Shown piece by piece: positions 1,406 through 35,389 of a stretch of DNA of 47,545 nucleotides; the stretch's first letter is position 1; every line of letters starts with the position of its first letter. Under the pieces are notes generated by a model. That model made no database searches. It was given only the letters and a program-made list of their open reading frames with translations, and had not been told where the DNA came from. The DNA lies in NCBI GenBank assembly GCA_903946925.1, contig CAJAXK010000051.1, positions 1-47,545 on the forward strand, in the 5' to 3' direction. This stretch comes from an uncultured Bacteroidales bacterium. Its GTDB lineage: Bacteria > Bacteroidota > Bacteroidia > Bacteroidales > UBA4417. The position numbers were made by a program, and so were the translations under genes.

Positions 1406-1768
1406 ATGTCATTTAAAGTAGATAAAGAATACAGGAGACTGAAAATCAAGCAACGCGTGCGTAAAGTCATTACTGGCTCAGGTGAACGCCCACGAATGAC
1501 AGTTTTCCGCAGCAATAAAGATATTTATGTCCAATTGATCGATGATCAGTCAGGCACAACATTGGTAGCTGCATCATCCCGCGTTAAAGGTATTGCGGAT
1601 CAAAAAATTACCAAAAGCGAGAAGGCCAAGCTTGTTGGAAAACTTATTGCAGAACGCGCTCTTGAGAGTGGTATTCTGGCTGTGGTTTTCGACCGTAACG
1701 GTTATCTTTATCATGGTAGGGTAAAAGCTTTGGCTGATTCAGCCAGGGAAGGTGGCATCAAATTTTAA
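1406..1768 (+). CDS. rplR: 50S ribosomal protein L18
   Basis: [20 protein letters not shown] and [26 protein letters not shown] motifs. Confidence 0.98.
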
Positions 1769-1776
1769 TTACAGCT

Positions 1777-2295
1777 ATGGCAAACGTAAATACAAATAGG
1801 GTAAAATCGAGCGATACCGAATTGAAAGACAGGCTCGTCGCCATTCAGCGCGTTACTAAGGTTACCAAAGGCGGTCGTACATTCACTTTCTCAGCAATTG
1901 TTGTTGTTGGAAATGAAAATGGGATTGTTGGTCACGGTCTTGGTAAAGCAAAAGAAGTTCAGGCTGCAATTGCAAAAGGAATTGAAGACGCCAAGAAAAA
2001 TTTGGTTCGTGTTCCCGTCCTTAAAGGCACTATACCTCACGAACAATTAGGGAAATATGGTGGTGCACTGGTTTTTATGAAACCTGCAACAAGTGGTACA
2101 GGCGTTATTGCCGGTGGTGCAATGCGTGCAGTACTCGAAAGCGTTGGTGTTAAGGATGTACTTGCCAAATCTAAAGGCTCTTCAAACCCTCACAGTGTTG
2201 TTAAAGCTACCATCGAAGGTTTGTGCCAACTTAGGGACGCTCATTCTGTAGCTCAACTCCGTGGAGTAAGCATGGATAAAGTATTTAATGGTTAA
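1777..2295 (+). CDS. rpsE: 30S ribosomal protein S5
   Basis: 172 aa; S5 motifs [22 protein letters not shown] and [13 protein letters not shown]. Confidence 0.98.
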
Positions 2296-2312
2296 CCACT
2301 AATTTATTAGCG

Positions 2313-2492
2313 ATGAAAAACGTAAGAGTAACACAGATAAAAAGTGGTATCAAGCAACCTGAGAGGCAAAAACGCACATTGCGTGCCTTAGGCATTACAA
2401 AAATGAACCGTCCGGTTGATCATGTTGCTACCCCTCAAATTGAAGGAATGATCAGGGCAATCAGCCATTTATTAAAAGTGGAAGAAATTTAA
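2313..2492 (+). CDS. rpmD: 50S ribosomal protein L30
   Basis: 59 aa ORF below the track cut-off: [59 protein letters not shown]. Confidence 0.95.
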
Positions 2493-2520
2493 TTGTAAAT
2501 CCTTTATAGACAAATATAAC

Positions 2521-2967
2521 ATGGATCTAAGTAATTTAAAGCCAGCAGAAGGCGCTACAAAAAGTGAAAAGCGAATTGGTCGTGGTCAAGGTTCCGGTCG
2601 TGGTGGTACATCAACACGCGGACACAAAGGGGCCAAATCCCGTTCTGGTTACAAGCGCCGCCGTGGCTTCGAAGGAGGTCAAATGCCTTTGTATCGTCGC
2701 GTACCAAAAGGAGGCTTCAAAAACATTAACAGGGTTGAATACACCGGCTTAAATATTGATGTATTGCAAAAACTTGCCGATTCAAGAAACTTGTTCGTAA
2801 TAACACCTGAAATTTTGAAGGAAAACGGACTTCTTGGAAAGAATGACCTTCTCAAAGTTTTGGGTCGTGGCAAATTGACCGCAAAATTAGAAGTAACAGC
2901 CGATGCTTTTTCAACAAAAGCTATTGAGGCAATTGAATCAGTTGGTGGAACTGTTATTAAACTCTGA
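2521..2967 (+). CDS. rplO: 50S ribosomal protein L15
   Basis: 148 aa; [43 protein letters not shown]. Confidence 0.98.
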
Positions 2968-2972
2968 ACTTA

Positions 2973-4334
2973 ATGAAACGCTTCATTCAGACACTAAAGA
3001 ACATTTATAAAATCGATGAGCTTCGTAATAGGATAGGCTACACTTTAGGGCTTATCCTTATTTACAGGTTCGGATCGTATGTTACTATTCCTGGTGTTGA
3101 TCCCCAGCAATTGATGGCATTGAAAAACCAATCATCATCAGGACTTTTGGGCTTGCTTAATATGTTCTCTGGTGGTGCTTTCAGCAATGCCTCAATTTTC
3201 GCCTTGGGTATTATGCCTTATATTTCAGCTTCTATCGTAATTCAGTTGCTGGGGATGGCAATTCCTTATTTCCAGAAACTTCAGAAAGAAGGTGAAAGTG
3301 GACGTAAGAAAATTAACCAGATCACACGTTACCTGACCGTTTTGATTACCGCATTACAGGCTCCAGGTTACATTACCAATTTGATTTCGCAATTACCTGC
3401 TCAGGCTATTACACCGTTTGATCCTAACGTTACTACACCCTCGCTTTTCTTTTGGATTACTTCAATAGTAGTTTTAGTTGCGGGTACTATGTTTGTAATG
3501 TGGTTGGGTGAAAAAATCACCGACAAAGGTTTAGGAAACGGTATCTCATTGATAATCATGGTGGGAATTATCGCACGCCTTCCTTTTGCACTTTTCAGCG
3601 AGTTTCTTGCACGTATGGAGCAGAAAGGTGGTGGTCTAGTTCTGTTTATTGTTGAAATTGCAGTTCTGGTATTGGTAGTTTTACTGTGTATCCTGTTAGT
3701 TCAAGGAACTCGGAAAATTCCGGTACAATACGCCAAAAGAGTAGTTGGTAACAAACAATATGGTGGGGTAAGGCAGTATATACCCTTAAAGGTAAACGCC
3801 GCTGGAGTTATGCCAATCATTTTTGCACAAGCCATTATGTTTTTGCCTCTTACAATTGCAGGCTTTGCAAGTAGTGAAAATTTGCAGGGATTTGCATCAG
3901 CCTTCACTAATATTGATGGATTTTGGTACAACTTTACATACGCCTTGTTGATTGTTGTTTTTACTTATTTTTACACTGCCATTACGGTTAATCCAAACCA
4001 AATGGCTGAAGATATGAAAAAGAACAATGGTTTCATTCCTGGTGTAAAACCTGGTAAAAAGACAGCAGATTTCATTGATTCTGTAATGTCGAAAATAACA
4101 TTCCCTGGTTCCTTATTTCTTGCGCTTGTTGCCATAATGCCAGCACTTGTTAAAATGGGTGGTGTTAGTTCACAATTTGCACAGTTTTATGGTGGAACTT
4201 CACTTTTGATTTTAGTTGGTGTTGTTTTGGATACCCTACAACAAATTGAAAGCCATCTGTTAATGCGCCACTACGAAGGATTGACAAAATCAGGTCGCAT
4301 AAAAGGCCGTAATGCCGCCGGAGCAGGCTTTTAA
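2973..4334 (+). CDS. secY: Preprotein translocase subunit SecY
   Basis: 453 aa multi-spanning membrane protein in canonical operon position; GNGISLIIMVGI motif. Confidence 0.98.
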   Translation: MKRFIQTLKNIYKIDELRNRIGYTLGLILIYRFGSYVTIPGVDPQQLMALKNQSSSGLLGLLNMFSGGAFSNASIFALGIMPYISASIVIQLLGMAIPYFQKLQKEGESGRKKINQITRYLTVLITALQAPGYITNLISQLPAQAITPFDPNVTTPSLFFWITSIVVLVAGTMFVMWLGEKITDKGLGNGISLIIMVGIIARLPFALFSEFLARMEQKGGGLVLFIVEIAVLVLVVLLCILLVQGTRKIPVQYAKRVVGNKQYGGVRQYIPLKVNAAGVMPIIFAQAIMFLPLTIAGFASSENLQGFASAFTNIDGFWYNFTYALLIVVFTYFYTAITVNPNQMAEDMKKNNGFIPGVKPGKKTADFIDSVMSKITFPGSLFLALVAIMPALVKMGGVSSQFAQFYGGTSLLILVGVVLDTLQQIESHLLMRHYEGLTKSGRIKGRNAAGAGF

Positions 4335-4352
4335 TCTGCCTCAAATCAGATT

Positions 4353-5144
4353 ATGGCTCTAATAAAAACAGATATTGAAATAGAAAAAATACGTACCAGT
4401 TCTTTACTTGTTGGGAAAACAATAGCTGAAGTAGCCAAGCATATACGGCCTGGTGTTACAACCGCTCATCTTGATAAAATCGCAGACGAGTTTATCCACG
4501 ACCATAAAGCTAAACCTGCTTTTAAAGGGTATCACGGATTTCCATCCACACTGTGTATATCAGTAAATGAAGTTGTTGTACATGGGATTCCTGGAAACAG
4601 GGAGTTGAAAGAAGGGGATTTGGTTTCTATTGACTGTGGTACAGTAATAGATGGCTACTTTGGGGATTCTGCGTTTTCATTTGGATTGTTGCCTGTCGCC
4701 ATCGAAATAGAATTGCTGTTGCAACGCACACACAATTCGCTTTTGAAAGCAATTAAATCGATAACACCGGGTAAACGGGTTGGCGATATCGGCTTCGAGG
4801 TGCAATCTTATGTTGAAAGCTTTGGATATTCGGTTGTTCGAGATCTTGTTGGACATGGATTAGGAACAAGTTTGCATGAGAAGCCCGAAGTTCCAAATTA
4901 TGGAAAGCGAGGAACCGGTGCAAAACTGGAAGTAGGCATGGTAATTTGTATCGAACCAATGATAAATCTTGGAATGAGACAGGTTATGCAAGAGAAGGAT
5001 GGATGGACAATACGCACACTGGATAGGAAAGCTTCTGCACATTTTGAACATGCTATTGCAATAAGGAATCATGGGGCTGAAATTCTTTCCAGCTTCAAAG
5101 ACATAGAACAGGTTTCAAATCCTGATATAGTAATAATTAGGTAA
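4353..5144 (+). CDS. map: Type I methionine aminopeptidase
   Basis: 263 aa; HGIPGNRELKEGDLVSIDCGTVIDGYFGDSAFSF and GHGLGTSLHEKPEVPNYG motifs; position after secY. Confidence 0.97.
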   Translation: MALIKTDIEIEKIRTSSLLVGKTIAEVAKHIRPGVTTAHLDKIADEFIHDHKAKPAFKGYHGFPSTLCISVNEVVVHGIPGNRELKEGDLVSIDCGTVIDGYFGDSAFSFGLLPVAIEIELLLQRTHNSLLKAIKSITPGKRVGDIGFEVQSYVESFGYSVVRDLVGHGLGTSLHEKPEVPNYGKRGTGAKLEVGMVICIEPMINLGMRQVMQEKDGWTIRTLDRKASAHFEHAIAIRNHGAEILSSFKDIEQVSNPDIVIIR

Positions 5145-5147
5145 TAA

Positions 5148-5366
5148 ATGGCGAAACAACTTGTAATTGAACAGGATGGTGTAGTGAAAGAATCACTTGG
5201 AAATGCGATGTTCCGGGTGGAACTGGAAAATGGTCACATGATTATTGCCCATATTTCAGGAAAAATGAGGATGCACTACATAAAAATCCTTGTTGGTGAT
5301 AGGGTTAAAATAGAAATGTCGCCGTATGATCTGACTAAAGGAAGGATTAACTTCCGTTACAAATAA
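5148..5366 (+). CDS. infA: Translation initiation factor IF-1
   Basis: 72 aa; [30 protein letters not shown]. Confidence 0.98.
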
Positions 5367-5396
5367 AGAAAACCACATTTAGAAATAACTCAAGCA

Positions 5397-5513
5397 ATGA
5401 AAGTTAGAGCATCTGTAAAAAAAAGAACACCTGAATGCAAAATCGTGCGCAGGAAAGGGAGAATCTACGTCATCAATAAAAAGAATCCCAAGTACAAACA
5501 AAGGCAAGGTTAA
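5397..5513 (+). CDS. rpmJ: 50S ribosomal protein L36
   Basis: 38 aa ORF not in the track: [38 protein letters not shown]. Confidence 0.96.
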
Positions 5514-5545
5514 TAATTGTGTAATCCCATAAGCTATTAATATAT

Positions 5546-5923
5546 ATGGCACGTATTGCTGGTATCGACTTACCAAAAAACAAAAGAGGAGAAATAGGCC
5601 TGACTTACATTTTCGGCATAGGCCGTAATTCAGCGCAAAGTATCCTGGACCAATGCGGTATCGACCGTAATAAAAAAGTTCAAGACTGGAGTGATGACGA
5701 ACAGAACAATATTCGTACCGTCATTAACGACAGTTTTAAAGTAGAGGGCGCACTTCGTTCGGAAGTACAGCTTAACATTAAACGATTGATGGACATCGGT
5801 TGTTACCGTGGGGTCCGTCACCGTTTAGGCCTTCCGCTACGTGGACAGAGTACAAAAAATAATGCCCGTACGCGTAAGGGTAGGAAAAAAACTGTTGCTA
5901 ATAAGAAAAAAGCAACCAAATAA
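5546..5923 (+). CDS. rpsM: 30S ribosomal protein S13
   Basis: [26 protein letters not shown] start; [25 protein letters not shown]. Confidence 0.98.
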
Positions 5924-5953
5924 GTTAGCATTTAAAGTACAAATAGTTTTACT

Positions 5954-6343
5954 ATGGCAAAGACCACCAAAGTATCGAAGAAAAGAGTTGTTAAAGTTGA
6001 GGCTGTTGGAAGAGCTTATGTTTCGGCTTCGTTTAACAACATCATAATTTCGCTGACCAATAATGCCGGACAGGTTATTTCCTGGGCTTCGGCTGGAAAA
6101 ATGGGTTTCAGAGGCTCAAAAAAGAATACTCCTTATGCTGCTCAAATGGCAGCTACCGATTGTTCTAAAGTAGCTTATGACCTTGGTTTGCGGAAAGTGA
6201 AAGTTTTCGTTAAAGGTCCAGGATCAGGCAGGGAATCTGCAATCCGCACCCTTCACACCGCAGGTATTGAAGTTACCGAAATACAGGATACCACGCCATT
6301 GCCACACAACGGTTGTAGGCCTCCAAAACGTAGAAGGGTTTAA
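5954..6343 (+). CDS. rpsK: 30S ribosomal protein S11
   Basis: 129 aa; [42 protein letters not shown]. Confidence 0.98.
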
Positions 6344-6406
6344 TTTTACCTGCTTCTTCGATATTAAAGAGTAAATAAGTTTAATAATTCATAATCAAAA
6401 GGCTTT

Positions 6407-7012
6407 ATGGCAAGATATATTGGTCCTAAGACAAGGATAGCCAGAAAATTCAAAGAACCTATCTTTGGGCCCGACAGTTCTTACGAAAAAAAGAACTATC
6501 CTCCAGGAATGCACGGACAAAATAGACGCCGGAAAAAACAATCCGAATACGGGGTTCAGTTGCAGGAAAAACAAAAAGCTAAATACACTTATGGTATTCT
6601 TGAAAAACAATTCAGGAACACATTTGAAAAGGCTACCCGCAAAAAAGGTGTTACAGGTGAAATACTGTTACAATTAATCGAAGCAAGGCTCGATAACGTG
6701 GTTTACCGTTTGGGTATTTCGCCAACTCGCGATGGTGCCCGTCAATTAGTGGGACATGGTCATATTACCGTGAACGGAAAAGTTTTAAATATCCCATCGT
6801 ACGAATGTTGCAAAGGTGATGTTGTAGCTGTTCGTGAGCGTTCGAAATCACTCGAAGTCATTCAGAATTCATTACAAGGACGCATAATGCGTTATTCATG
6901 GCTCGAATGGGACGGCGCCTTAATGACTGGTAAATTTGTCAATTTCCCTGAACGTGAAGAAATTCCTGAAAACATTAAGGAACAACTCATAGTGGAATTG
7001 TACTCGAAGTAA
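6407..7012 (+). CDS. rpsD: 30S ribosomal protein S4
   Basis: 201 aa; [32 protein letters not shown]4 domain. Confidence 0.98.
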
Positions 7013-31885: not shown

Positions 31886-31893
31886 TACATTTG
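31886..31893 (+). promoter_or_regulatory. Putative Bacteroidota -7 box for gatE
   Basis: TACATTTG (TAnnTTTG), 24 nt upstream of the gatE ATG at 31918. Confidence 0.5.
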
Positions 31894-31917: not shown

Positions 31918-33885
31918 ATGGCTCAGAATATAGATCCAAAGCTCAACTACGAAGAAACCAAACGCAAGATCGGTTACCTTCCACGCCATCAATCCACACA
32001 GGAAACTTACGACCGCATCGGCTTTATGTCGGGGCTTGAAGTTCACCAGCAGCTTAATACTGCCCAAAAGCTTTTTTGCCGATGCCCGGCAGGTGTTTAT
32101 CAAAAACCTGGTGATTTTGATGCAGAAGTTATCCGGCACATGCGCCCCACGCTCAGCGAGTTGGGCGAATATGACGGCACAGCTTTAATGGAATTCAAAA
32201 CACGAAAAGAAATCATCTACCGACTAAAGAGCAAAACTACCTGTACTTACGAGGTTGACGACACACCTCCGTTTCCGCTTAACCGCGAAGCCTTGGGAAT
32301 TGCCATAGAAATTTCGCTGGTTTCAAAACTTAATATAGTTGGCGAAGTACATATTACCCGCAAGCAATACCTTGATGGCAGCATCCCCACGGGTTTTCAA
32401 CGCACTGCTATTATTGGCGTTGAGGGTGAAATTCCACTGAAAAACAAAAAAATCAGGTTAATACAACTCAGCCTCGAAGAAGATTCCTGCCGCGAAGTAA
32501 GCGATATTGGCCATACGCGCATTTATCGCACCGATAGGCTTGGTATGCCGCTTATAGAAACGGTTACCTACCCGGATATGACCAATCCTGACGAGGTGAA
32601 AGAAGCATGCAATTACATACGTTTTCTCGGCCGCAGCACAGGCAAAGTACGTACCGGAATCGGTGCAGGACGCGAAGATGTTAATGTAAGCTGCAAAGGC
32701 GGCACCCGTGTCGAAATTAAAGGTGTGGCCCATAGCCGCTGGATTCCTGACCTTACCCATATCGAATGTTTCAGGCAGTGGGCCTTACTCGCAATCCGCG
32801 ATAATTTGAATACCCGTTTCCCCGATTTAAAAATCTGGAAACAAACATTTGTTGAACTCGATTTGCATACCCTGAAAACAAAAAACAGCTTTGTTTTGGA
32901 TGCAAAAGCCAATGGGTTGAAGTTGGTGGCAGTAAACCTTCCAGGTTTTAAAGGCATACTTTCGCATTTTACACAACCTGGAAAGATGTTTGCCAACGAA
33001 CTCGTTGAAAGGTTGAAAGTGATCGCCTGCATCGAAATACCAAATATGACCCATAGCGAAGAATTTGAACCTCAACTCATTGCCGGCGATTGGGACAAAA
33101 TATCAGTCTTATTAAAACCAGGTGAAAACGATGCACAGGTAATTATTCGGGGACCAATAGAAGATATAAAAACAGCCCTCGAAACCATAGAAGAACGTTG
33201 TAAAATGGCGTTTGCCGGAGTACCACCCGAAACGCGCAAATCATTTGAGAATGGAACCACCATTTTTGAACGGGTTCTTCCTGGTGCCGACCGAATGTAT
33301 CCTGATACTGATTCTGCACCGATTCCTTTGGAAAATGAATATATAGAATTGTTGGGCAAGAACAAACCAGAGGAGGTCATTGACCGATACAAACGACTAC
33401 AGGACTGGAATGTACCAGAGGATTGCTATACATATATTTTCAAGAAAAACCTTTTCCCCCTTATCGAACGCATCGTAACCGAACTACAGCTTGATCCTGC
33501 ATTTGTTGGGAAGTTTTTCGGACATGCCGTAAAATGGGTCGAAGGCCAGTATAAACCTGCAGCCGAGTTCGATTACAAAATCATTTACGCCTTACTCAGG
33601 TTTATAAAACAACGAAATCTCGATTTGGGTATAGCCCGCCGTATGCTTCCTCTGGTTTATCAATACCCAAAAATGGAATTCGATTCGGTGTTGACCAGCA
33701 TTCATTTTAAATCAGTGAGTAAAGAGCAGATTGTATCGAAAATACCATTCCTGAAGAAAAAATTAGCTGAAATAAGGCTTTCGAAAGGCGAAACCGTGGA
33801 GCATAATTGGATAATGGGTCAATTGCGCCGACAAGCCGAAGGGAATATGAGCATGCATGAGTTGCACGAATCAATTGATAATTGA
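31918..33885 (+). CDS. gatE: Archaeal-type Glu-tRNA(Gln) amidotransferase subunit E
   Basis: 655 aa from MAQNIDPKLNYEE; IGFMSGLEVHQQLNTAQKLFCRCPAGVYQ; AspRS-like insertion (LPGFKGILSHFTQPGKMFANELVERLK); RVLPGADRMYPDTDSAPIPLENEYI; C-terminal helical/tail domain. Confidence 0.92.
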   Translation: MAQNIDPKLNYEETKRKIGYLPRHQSTQETYDRIGFMSGLEVHQQLNTAQKLFCRCPAGVYQKPGDFDAEVIRHMRPTLSELGEYDGTALMEFKTRKEIIYRLKSKTTCTYEVDDTPPFPLNREALGIAIEISLVSKLNIVGEVHITRKQYLDGSIPTGFQRTAIIGVEGEIPLKNKKIRLIQLSLEEDSCREVSDIGHTRIYRTDRLGMPLIETVTYPDMTNPDEVKEACNYIRFLGRSTGKVRTGIGAGREDVNVSCKGGTRVEIKGVAHSRWIPDLTHIECFRQWALLAIRDNLNTRFPDLKIWKQTFVELDLHTLKTKNSFVLDAKANGLKLVAVNLPGFKGILSHFTQPGKMFANELVERLKVIACIEIPNMTHSEEFEPQLIAGDWDKISVLLKPGENDAQVIIRGPIEDIKTALETIEERCKMAFAGVPPETRKSFENGTTIFERVLPGADRMYPDTDSAPIPLENEYIELLGKNKPEEVIDRYKRLQDWNVPEDCYTYIFKKNLFPLIERIVTELQLDPAFVGKFFGHAVKWVEGQYKPAAEFDYKIIYALLRFIKQRNLDLGIARRMLPLVYQYPKMEFDSVLTSIHFKSVSKEQIVSKIPFLKKKLAEIRLSKGETVEHNWIMGQLRRQAEGNMSMHELHESIDN

Positions 33886-33978
33886 CGATTTACGACTGAC
33901 GATTTACGATTGTGTGCTTCGTTACACAAATCTCCCGTAATTCGTACCTCGTAAATCGTAATTCGTACCCCGTAAATC
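33884..33978. repeat. Inverted ACGATTTACG / CGTAAATCGTAATTCGT word array between gatE and gatD
   Basis: GACGATTTACGACTGACGATTTACGATTGTGT ... ACACAAATC...GTAATTCGTACCTCGTAAATCGTAATTCGTACCCCGTAAATC. Confidence 0.75.
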
Positions 33979-34003
33979 AAAAAATAAAAAATCCATAATT
34001 CTA

Positions 34004-35389
34004 ATGACCGACGATATTTTTCAAGGATATAAAGGTGCTGCACTCGAAGTACTCAAAAATTACAATGTCCGTGTTTGGGGACAAGCCGTGGTAAAAACCA
34101 CACGTGGCGAATTTTCCGGAACCATCCTTCCTCGTTCCGAAAACGATGACGATAAGCACATTGTAATGAAAATCCCAACGGGCTATAATATCGGGCTTGA
34201 TGTAGCCACCATTTCCGATATGAAGGAAACCGGTTATAAAAAGGCGAATTATAAAATCCCCGAAAAGGAATTCCCATACACTGAAGGTTTGCCCAAAGTA
34301 AAACTAATCGGCACGGGCGGCACAATTGCTTCGCGCCTCGATTATCGCACCGGTGCTGTGATTCCTGCATTTTCGCCTGGCGAATTGTATGGTGCTGTTC
34401 CCGAATTGGCATCTATCTGCAACCTTACTACCGAAAAAGTTTTTGCCGTTTTCAGTGAGAATATGGCACCCGACCATTATAAAAAGTTAGCTATTGCAAT
34501 AGGAAAAGAAATTGAAGCCGGAGTTGATGGTATTGTAATCGGCCACGGGACCGATACCTTACACCATACTGCTGCTGCACTCACCTTTATGGTGCAAAAT
34601 TCGCCGGTACCTATTGTTTTGGTGGGTTCGCAGCGTTCCAGCGACCGTCCTAGCTCTGATGCAGCCCTGAACCTAATGCATGCTTGTACTGCTGCCGGGC
34701 ATGGTGATGTGGCCGAAGTAATGGTTTGTATGTTTGGCCCTACCAGCGATGAATACGGGTTTCTGCACAAAGGAACACGCGTAAGGAAAATGCATTCTTC
34801 GTACCGCTCAACTTTCCGTACTATTGGCGATACACCGCTGGCAACAATAACCCGCAAAGGATTAAAACCAATCAAGGAAACTTACAACCATCGCCGTAAG
34901 GATCGCAAAGTAACCATACTTCCCTATTTTGAAGAAAAAGTTTCCATTGTTTACTACTATCCAAACATGCAGCCCGATATTATTGATTCACTGGTTGAAC
35001 ATGGATATAAAGGCATTGTGATTGCCGGTACCGGTTTGGGACATGTGAACAAACCTTTGTATCCGGCTATCGAAAGGGCAGCAAAAGCAGGTGTTGCTAT
35101 TTATATGACCGTTCAAACCTTGTGGGGATATGTTCACATGTTTGTTTATGATACGGGCCGCGACCTTATGGCGAAAGGAGTAATCCCAGCCGAAAACATG
35201 CTGCCTGAAGTAGCTTATATCAAACTGGGTTGGGCTTTAGGACAAACAAGTGATTTAGAAGAAGTTAAGCGACTCATGCTCACCCCGATAAATGACGAAA
35301 CCACTCCGCGCGAACCCTACAACGGCTATCTTATTTATCAGGGCGGCGTTACAGAAGTAGAAGATTTTATCAGGAAAGTACATAAATAG
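34004..35389 (+). CDS. gatD: Archaeal-type Glu-tRNA(Gln) amidotransferase subunit D (asparaginase-like)
   Basis: 461 aa; N-terminal GatD domain (VRVWGQAVVKTTRGEFSGTILPRSENDDDKHIVMKIPTGYNIG); GTGGTIASRLDYRTGAVIPAF; IGHGTDTLHHTAAAL; HKGTRVRKMHSSYRSTF. Confidence 0.93.
   Translation: MTDDIFQGYKGAALEVLKNYNVRVWGQAVVKTTRGEFSGTILPRSENDDDKHIVMKIPTGYNIGLDVATISDMKETGYKKANYKIPEKEFPYTEGLPKVKLIGTGGTIASRLDYRTGAVIPAFSPGELYGAVPELASICNLTTEKVFAVFSENMAPDHYKKLAIAIGKEIEAGVDGIVIGHGTDTLHHTAAALTFMVQNSPVPIVLVGSQRSSDRPSSDAALNLMHACTAAGHGDVAEVMVCMFGPTSDEYGFLHKGTRVRKMHSSYRSTFRTIGDTPLATITRKGLKPIKETYNHRRKDRKVTILPYFEEKVSIVYYYPNMQPDIIDSLVEHGYKGIVIAGTGLGHVNKPLYPAIERAAKAGVAIYMTVQTLWGYVHMFVYDTGRDLMAKGVIPAENMLPEVAYIKLGWALGQTSDLEEVKRLMLTPINDETTPREPYNGYLIYQGGVTEVEDFIRKVHK

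Follow-up and report, generated by a model that had tools for sequence, protein, structure and literature searches.

A predicted GatDE-type tRNA-dependent amidotransferase coexisting with glutaminyl-tRNA synthetase in Bacteroidota

Adjacent genes for both subunits of GatDE were found in a bacterium of the order Bacteroidales (UBA4417), and we consider that they probably encode a working tRNA-dependent amidotransferase of the GatDE type, which is native to this lineage and, alongside glutaminyl-tRNA synthetase (GlnRS), handles Glu-tRNA(Gln) in an accessory or repair role. The genes lie on a stretch of 47,545 nt (contig CAJAXK010000051.1 of the assembly GCA_903946925.1), termed the window below, to which all coordinates given without a locus label refer. 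GatDE was described in archaea only in a review published in 2021 (PMC8007984) and was stated in another, published in 2022, to be found now only in archaea (PMC9499178). No paper treating GatDE as a bacterial family was found in our literature search, which covered open-access papers. The family models of NCBI would give these bacterial proteins the names GatD and GatE, and the sequence databases thus very likely hold them under these names. The importance of the finding lies in a widespread, old, and conserved GatDE of Bacteroidota living with GlnRS, not in one odd bacterium. In the window, the two genes are full-length, co-directional, and separated by 118 bp, exactly where the initial annotation of this stretch had placed them:
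31918..33885, + strand: gatE, 655 aa, putative transamidase and tRNA-binding subunit; over the cut-offs of NF003107 and TIGR00134.
34004..35389, + strand: gatD, 461 aa, putative amidohydrolase (ammonia-releasing) subunit with a GatD_N domain; over the cut-off of TIGR02153.

The profile searches bore out the initial claim that the two proteins are genuine GatDE subunits, neither GatB nor a plain asparaginase. GatE scored 462.3 bits against the equivalog model NF003107 (cut-off of 456, exceeded only narrowly) and 397.2 bits against TIGR00134 (319.55), while its score of 111.7 bits against the GatB model TIGR00133 was far below the cut-off of 314.8. The closest solved structures were those of archaeal GatDE (2d6f_C and 1zq1_C with E values of 6e-84 and 7e-80, respectively). 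Likewise, the AlphaFold model of GatE (mean predicted local distance difference test score of 82.5) matched 1zq1_C (E value of 9e-39) and 2d6f (5e-37) first and GatB after them. We used this model for domain content only, because the overall root-mean-square deviation was high (7-8 Å over the 510-519 columns aligned with archaeal GatE) and the catalytic core contained loops of low confidence. In GatB of yeast GatFAB, H36, E156, and E186 together with E34, T189, N230, and S232 were reported as ligands of Mg2+ and ATP (PMC4027206). E41, H43, E187, E214, T217, N256, and S258 of GatE correspond to these ligands when matched by motif and spacing, without superposition, and all seven are among the 85 sites conserved over the archaeal and both bacterial types of GatE. 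Two further regions were delimited in GatE:
32803..33192, + strand: residues 296-425, AspRS-like insertion domain region; approximate boundaries, from the alignment to archaeal GatE.
33352..33882, + strand: residues 479-655, all-helical tail region; helices in the model at residues 473-654.
For the AspRS-like insertion noted in the initial annotation, a corresponding region exists in the sequence and in the model, but its match to the Pfam GAD domain fell short of the E value of 0.001, and we treat it as a putative domain of this kind.

GatD scored 501.2 bits against the equivalog model TIGR02153 (cut-off of 324) and passed both equivalog models of GatD, as well as the broad subfamily model TIGR00519. 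Its domains are GatD_N (PF18195; 40 bits with a cut-off of 25.7), Asparaginase, and Asparaginase_C, and the closest solved structures were again archaeal GatDE, 2d6f and 1zq1 (1zq1_A with an E value of 2e-116). T107, T183, D184, and K262, which we take from established knowledge on the asparaginase family to be the catalytic residues, are invariant in 103 bacterial GatD sequences and align with T101, T177, D178, and K254 of archaeal (MTH) GatD. The Thr/Thr-Asp/Lys set was therefore intact as initially claimed, and the Lys residue that had only been guessed is K262. Both genes are under strong purifying selection, as the ratio of nonsynonymous to synonymous substitution rates (dN/dS) between the window and a locus of the same genus (L179) was 0.034 for gatE and 0.004 for gatD at a dS of approximately 0.5.

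Judging from these conserved residues, the chemistry of GatDE is very likely retained in the pair. GatD would hydrolyse glutamine (or asparagine) at the Thr/Thr-Asp/Lys centre and hand the ammonia to GatE, which, with a Glu-charged tRNA bound, would activate the glutamate using ATP and Mg2+ and amidate it to yield Gln-tRNA(Gln). We suppose that GluRS, in error, under stress, or on purpose, may produce Glu-tRNA(Gln), and that GatDE may convert it to Gln-tRNA(Gln); GatDE would then provide both repair by conversion and a spare route to Gln-tRNA.

The genome containing the window (6.17 Mb, estimated to be 100% complete, in a draft of 498 contigs) encodes a full-length GlnRS, which scored 750.7 bits (cut-off of 425.8) and has readable HIGH and MSK motifs. 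As GlnRS is present and intact, GatDE would not carry the main flow of Gln-tRNA(Gln) but work beside GlnRS. Thus, the initial proposal that GatDE is used "instead of, or alongside," GlnRS survived in its second half, not in its first. GluRS, AsnRS, and bacterial AspRS also exceeded their cut-offs in this genome, ruling out a missing AsnRS as the reason for keeping GatDE. No GatB was found in the GatE-based search of the genome, in which the model of GatB itself was not used, and no GatA exceeded the cut-off, the single partial match being a lipoprotein-like amidase. Among 71 GatE-positive genomes, GlnRS was over the cut-off in 64, and GatA in 23; among the 42 genomes reached via loci of the window type, G424 alone possessed GatA. 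Thus, GlnRS and GatDE without GatCAB is the typical state in Bacteroidales. Of the seven genomes scored as lacking GlnRS, G399 contained fragments and G252 a short fragment of it, while G420, G427, and G434 are metagenome-assembled genomes (MAGs) that lack a completeness figure and are possibly incomplete; the remaining two are treated below. In three single-contig genomes with the other GatE type (G132, G124, and G295), gatE and glnS are on one contig. Glutamine synthetase was found in the window's genome and in 33 of the 35 genomes checked, so that the amide donor is available and a loss of this enzyme is ruled out as the reason for keeping GatDE.

GatDE is by no means confined to the window. 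The cut-off of GatE was passed by 30 of the 396 sampled genomes of Bacteroidota, the window's own genome included (29 of the 395 others). One of these 29 (G156; locus L032) has GatE of the window type, being 66% identical to that in the window, and the other 28 have other types, being 34-44% identical where aligned, with a second type of 42% identity prevailing. In the order to which the window belongs, 125 of the 294 genomes sampled had a GatE over the cut-off, among them every one of the four from the window's genus, and the acquisition by one bacterium assumed in the initial annotation is too narrow. Forty-seven families of the order were uniformly GatE-positive, 52 were uniformly negative, and 12 were mixed, with the family labels of 26 genomes interpolated from the listing order. 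As the presence of GatE is nearly uniform inside families, we regard GatDE in Bacteroidota as old and mostly inherited vertically, with losses. A scan of GTDB with GatE returned at least 562 relatives, the best 80 of which are 59-87% identical to the window GatE; these 80 are mostly MAGs of Bacteroidales but include two isolates with the window type, Marinifilum flexuosum DSM 21950 and Perlabentimonas gracilis.

The identity of the window GatE to two archaeal GatE sequences is 33-37%, in contrast to 42-66% for nearly all GatE sequences of other Bacteroidota, and a recent transfer from archaea is unsupported. In a quick maximum-likelihood tree of GatE, the window type received 100% support in the Shimodaira-Hasegawa-like approximate likelihood ratio test and had a stem of 1.83 changes per column. 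The same tree grouped the window type and the other main bacterial type together (91), apart from the archaeal sequences (99); with only three archaeal sequences and long branches, it fixes neither the root nor the donor and fits a deep transfer as well as an old bacterial branch, the two origins named in the initial annotation. GatE of genome G358 (L030:1471-3399), 34% identical to the window GatE, was placed outside both main bacterial types and was possibly acquired separately. Window-type GatE sequences were also found on contigs labelled as Aminicenantes, Cloacimonadota, and Archangium (L106, L118, L147, and L138); these are nested among Bacteroidales, indicating either transfer or mis-binning. 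Spread of GatE by mobile elements was considered and rejected: the phage sequences searched yielded no GatE, only weak GatB-like matches, and the plasmid matches listed were GatB-like except for an archaeal gatE carried by a Natrinema replicon. This plasmid gene (L149:4914-6865; CP031304.1, a 987-kb plasmid of Natrinema thermotolerans) is unannotated and has a frameshift about halfway.

Several observations weigh against this accessory or repair role of GatDE. The profile search of the window's genome found a single GltX and no second or archaeal-type GluRS that could make Glu-tRNA(Gln), and a survey classified the GluRS of Bacteroidetes as discriminating (PMC3927822). A supply of Glu-tRNA(Gln) is thus only presumed, albeit the same classification suits GatDE better as a repair enzyme than as the main route. 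We examined the Arg at the position of R358 of Thermus thermophilus GluRS as a mark of discrimination and discarded it, since this Arg is present in the GluRS of the window's genome but likewise in those of G288 and G315, both lacking GlnRS. Archaeal GatDE reads the A1:U72 pair of tRNA-Gln (PMC9499178), whereas both tRNA-Gln of the window's genome have U1-A72 (and A73); moreover, tRNA-Gln was alike in this respect (U1-A72 and A73) in the GatDE-positive and GatDE-negative Bacteroidota examined. Finally, divergence in GatE is greatest in the parts predicted to face the tRNA: measured against the consensus of the second main type in Bacteroidota, the catalytic core is 64-70% identical, the insertion only 28%, and the tail only 16%.

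The last of these observations in particular leaves room for the main rival reading, which we consider less likely, that GatDE in Bacteroidota retains GatDE-like chemistry but acts on a changed target, such as a different tRNA or an aminoacyl-tRNA with a use outside translation. Such a change would fit with the near-constant presence of GlnRS in GatE-positive genomes, the long stem leading to the Bacteroidales-type GatE, and the non-archaeal tRNA-Gln. It is also suggestive, albeit only that, that the two main bacterial types are 42-44% identical in GatE but 68-70% identical in GatD, with the change in GatE concentrated in the insertion and the tail. On the other hand, the insertion and the tail are the least conserved regions inside each type as well, so the divergence may be general; no conserved neighbour pointing to another pathway was found among the loci compared; and the equivalog cut-offs of GatE are still passed, that of NF003107 by a small margin. 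We only tentatively entertain that GatDE of the Bacteroidales type has become adapted to some substrate different from bulk Glu-tRNA(Gln), be it another tRNA, a subset of tRNA, or an aminoacyl-tRNA not destined for translation. If true, a tRNA amidotransferase widespread in bacteria would have a function undescribed for either GatDE or GatCAB.

It is unlikely that Gln-tRNA(Gln) comes mainly from GatDE, with GlnRS being degenerate or specialised, for instance, one enzyme serving each tRNA-Gln isoacceptor. The genome does contain two tRNA-Gln genes, one with CUG (74 nt, directly downstream of glnS) and the other with UUG (72 nt), and across the order the 74-nt type, scored by BLAST similarity to the tRNA of the window's genome, accompanied GatE (89 of 125 positive versus 40 of 167 negative genomes; odds ratio of approximately 8). 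However, this association vanished within families (z = 0; three informative families, with the 26 interpolated family labels) and is thus regarded as a clade effect, and the GlnRS of the genome is full-length, scores 750.7 bits, and has both motifs readable. In G288 and G315, both 99% complete and bearing the other GatE type, GlnRS truly seems to be absent, but GatCAB (with GatA over the cut-off) is present beside GatDE. These two genomes from elsewhere in the phylum (L006, L007, L173, L174, L180, and L181) are where GatDE would most likely be a true main route. Altogether, as tRNA-Gln is alike with and without GatDE and the association is absent within families, there is no sign of tRNA-Gln shaped by GatDE, and a co-evolution of the two was rejected. 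Two features of these tRNAs are recorded in their own right. The 74-nt tRNA-Gln, in which the D-loop and the variable region are altered, occurs commonly in the order of the window and sometimes adjoins glnS (L063, L155, L160, and L170). The discriminator base is A73 in tRNA-Gln of all Bacteroidota examined (including L063:1500-1573 and L067:1501-1572), not G73, which is listed as a bacterial identity element for Gln (PMC9976931).

We consider it very improbable that GatE is a mere relic and that GatD functions by itself, as an asparaginase or a glutaminase: the better conservation of GatD would agree with this idea, but the catalytic sites of GatE are invariant and its dN/dS is as low as 0.034, in an examination of gatE-positive loci that included no search for freestanding gatD.

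The gatE-gatD pair is a stand-alone unit, since the two genes were co-directional in all 112 loci counted (gatE-positive loci with both genes within the stretch retrieved) and no other conserved gene was found in the neighbourhoods compared. None of glnS, gltX, and asnS was found in the short flanks of gatDE compared, in which the adjoining glnS of G014 was missed. In G014 (L223:1418-6461, C45), the sole case seen of GatDE adjoining the GlnRS gene, glnS (1418-3166, +) is convergent with and abuts gatD-gatE (3169-6461, -). Two noncoding features belong to the unit in the window:
31886..31893, + strand: TACATTTG, the -7 box of the Bacteroidota promoter of gatE-gatD, of the form TAnnTTTG, 24 nt 5' of the ATG of gatE.
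33886..34003, no strand: spacer between the two genes, with repeat words resembling CGTAAATCGTA/CGTAATTCGTA, read from the sequence; similar words occur in L069 and L070.
The consensus of the -7 box in Bacteroidota is TAnnTTTG. Both the box upstream of gatE and the Bacteroidota-style repeat words (CGTAAATCGTA-like) between the genes had been pointed out initially and were found again; a TAnnTTTG box is located 24-41 nt 5' of gatE in 13 of the 15 relatives checked, the window included, while its chance occurrence is approximately 0.09 per 120 b. The stretch AAAAGATATTTCTACATTTGA upstream of gatE is identical among the window, L069, L070, and L179, and the flanks of L069 and L070 diverge. We prefer the ATG at 31918 as the start of gatE, as the TTG at 31891, which is also in frame, is inside the promoter box. 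The genes flanking gatDE in the window are typical of Bacteroidota, namely those for a TonB plug/SusC-like protein, SusD, and a Por secretion tail. Although the assembly is a draft in 498 contigs and the relatives are mostly MAGs, contamination, mis-binning, or a very recent archaeal transfer is refuted with near certainty by these flanks, the presence in all four genomes of the genus, the contigs shared with glnS in single-contig genomes, the two isolates, and the Bacteroidota promoter, and the initial view of the pair as chromosomal and expressed-looking stands.

GatDE is central to explanations for the entry of glutamine into the genetic code, in which it is argued that GatDE is absent from bacteria and that GlnRS never settles beside GatDE (PMC9499178). 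As many members of a bacterial phylum possess GatDE, in stable coexistence with GlnRS, these arguments need to be revisited. The ordinary GlnRS that nearly always accompanies GatDE in Bacteroidota should make it unnecessary, and the large and partly culturable set of bacteria found here (e.g., M. flexuosum DSM 21950) allows one to ask the purpose of a second route to Gln-tRNA.

The system in the window resembles archaeal GatDE (2d6f of Methanothermobacter thermautotrophicus and 1zq1 of Pyrococcus abyssi) in comprising two subunits of the same fold, as judged from sequence and model, in the N-domain and asparaginase core of GatD with the Thr/Thr-Asp/Lys centre, and in a long GatE with the Mg2+/ATP ligands, a putative insertion domain, and a predicted helical tail. 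It differs in that GatE and GatD are only 33-37% and 44-48% identical to the archaeal counterparts, respectively, that it occurs beside GlnRS whereas archaeal GatDE occurs where GlnRS is absent, that tRNA-Gln has U1-A72 instead of A1-U72, and that the archaeal-type GluRS partner was not found in the window's genome. Some bacteria have GatCAB beside GlnRS and AsnRS (PMC4206432), as the window's genome has GatDE, and GatB, the homologue of GatE, shares the transamidase fold and the ligands; nevertheless, the window GatE is far from the GatB model (112 bits with a cut-off of 314.8), and the ammonia source would be GatD, not GatA. With type I/II L-asparaginases, GatD shares the core domain, the catalytic residues, and a score over the cut-off of TIGR00519, but it is distinguished from them by the GatD_N domain, the equivalog score (501 versus 324), and gatE as its fixed neighbour.

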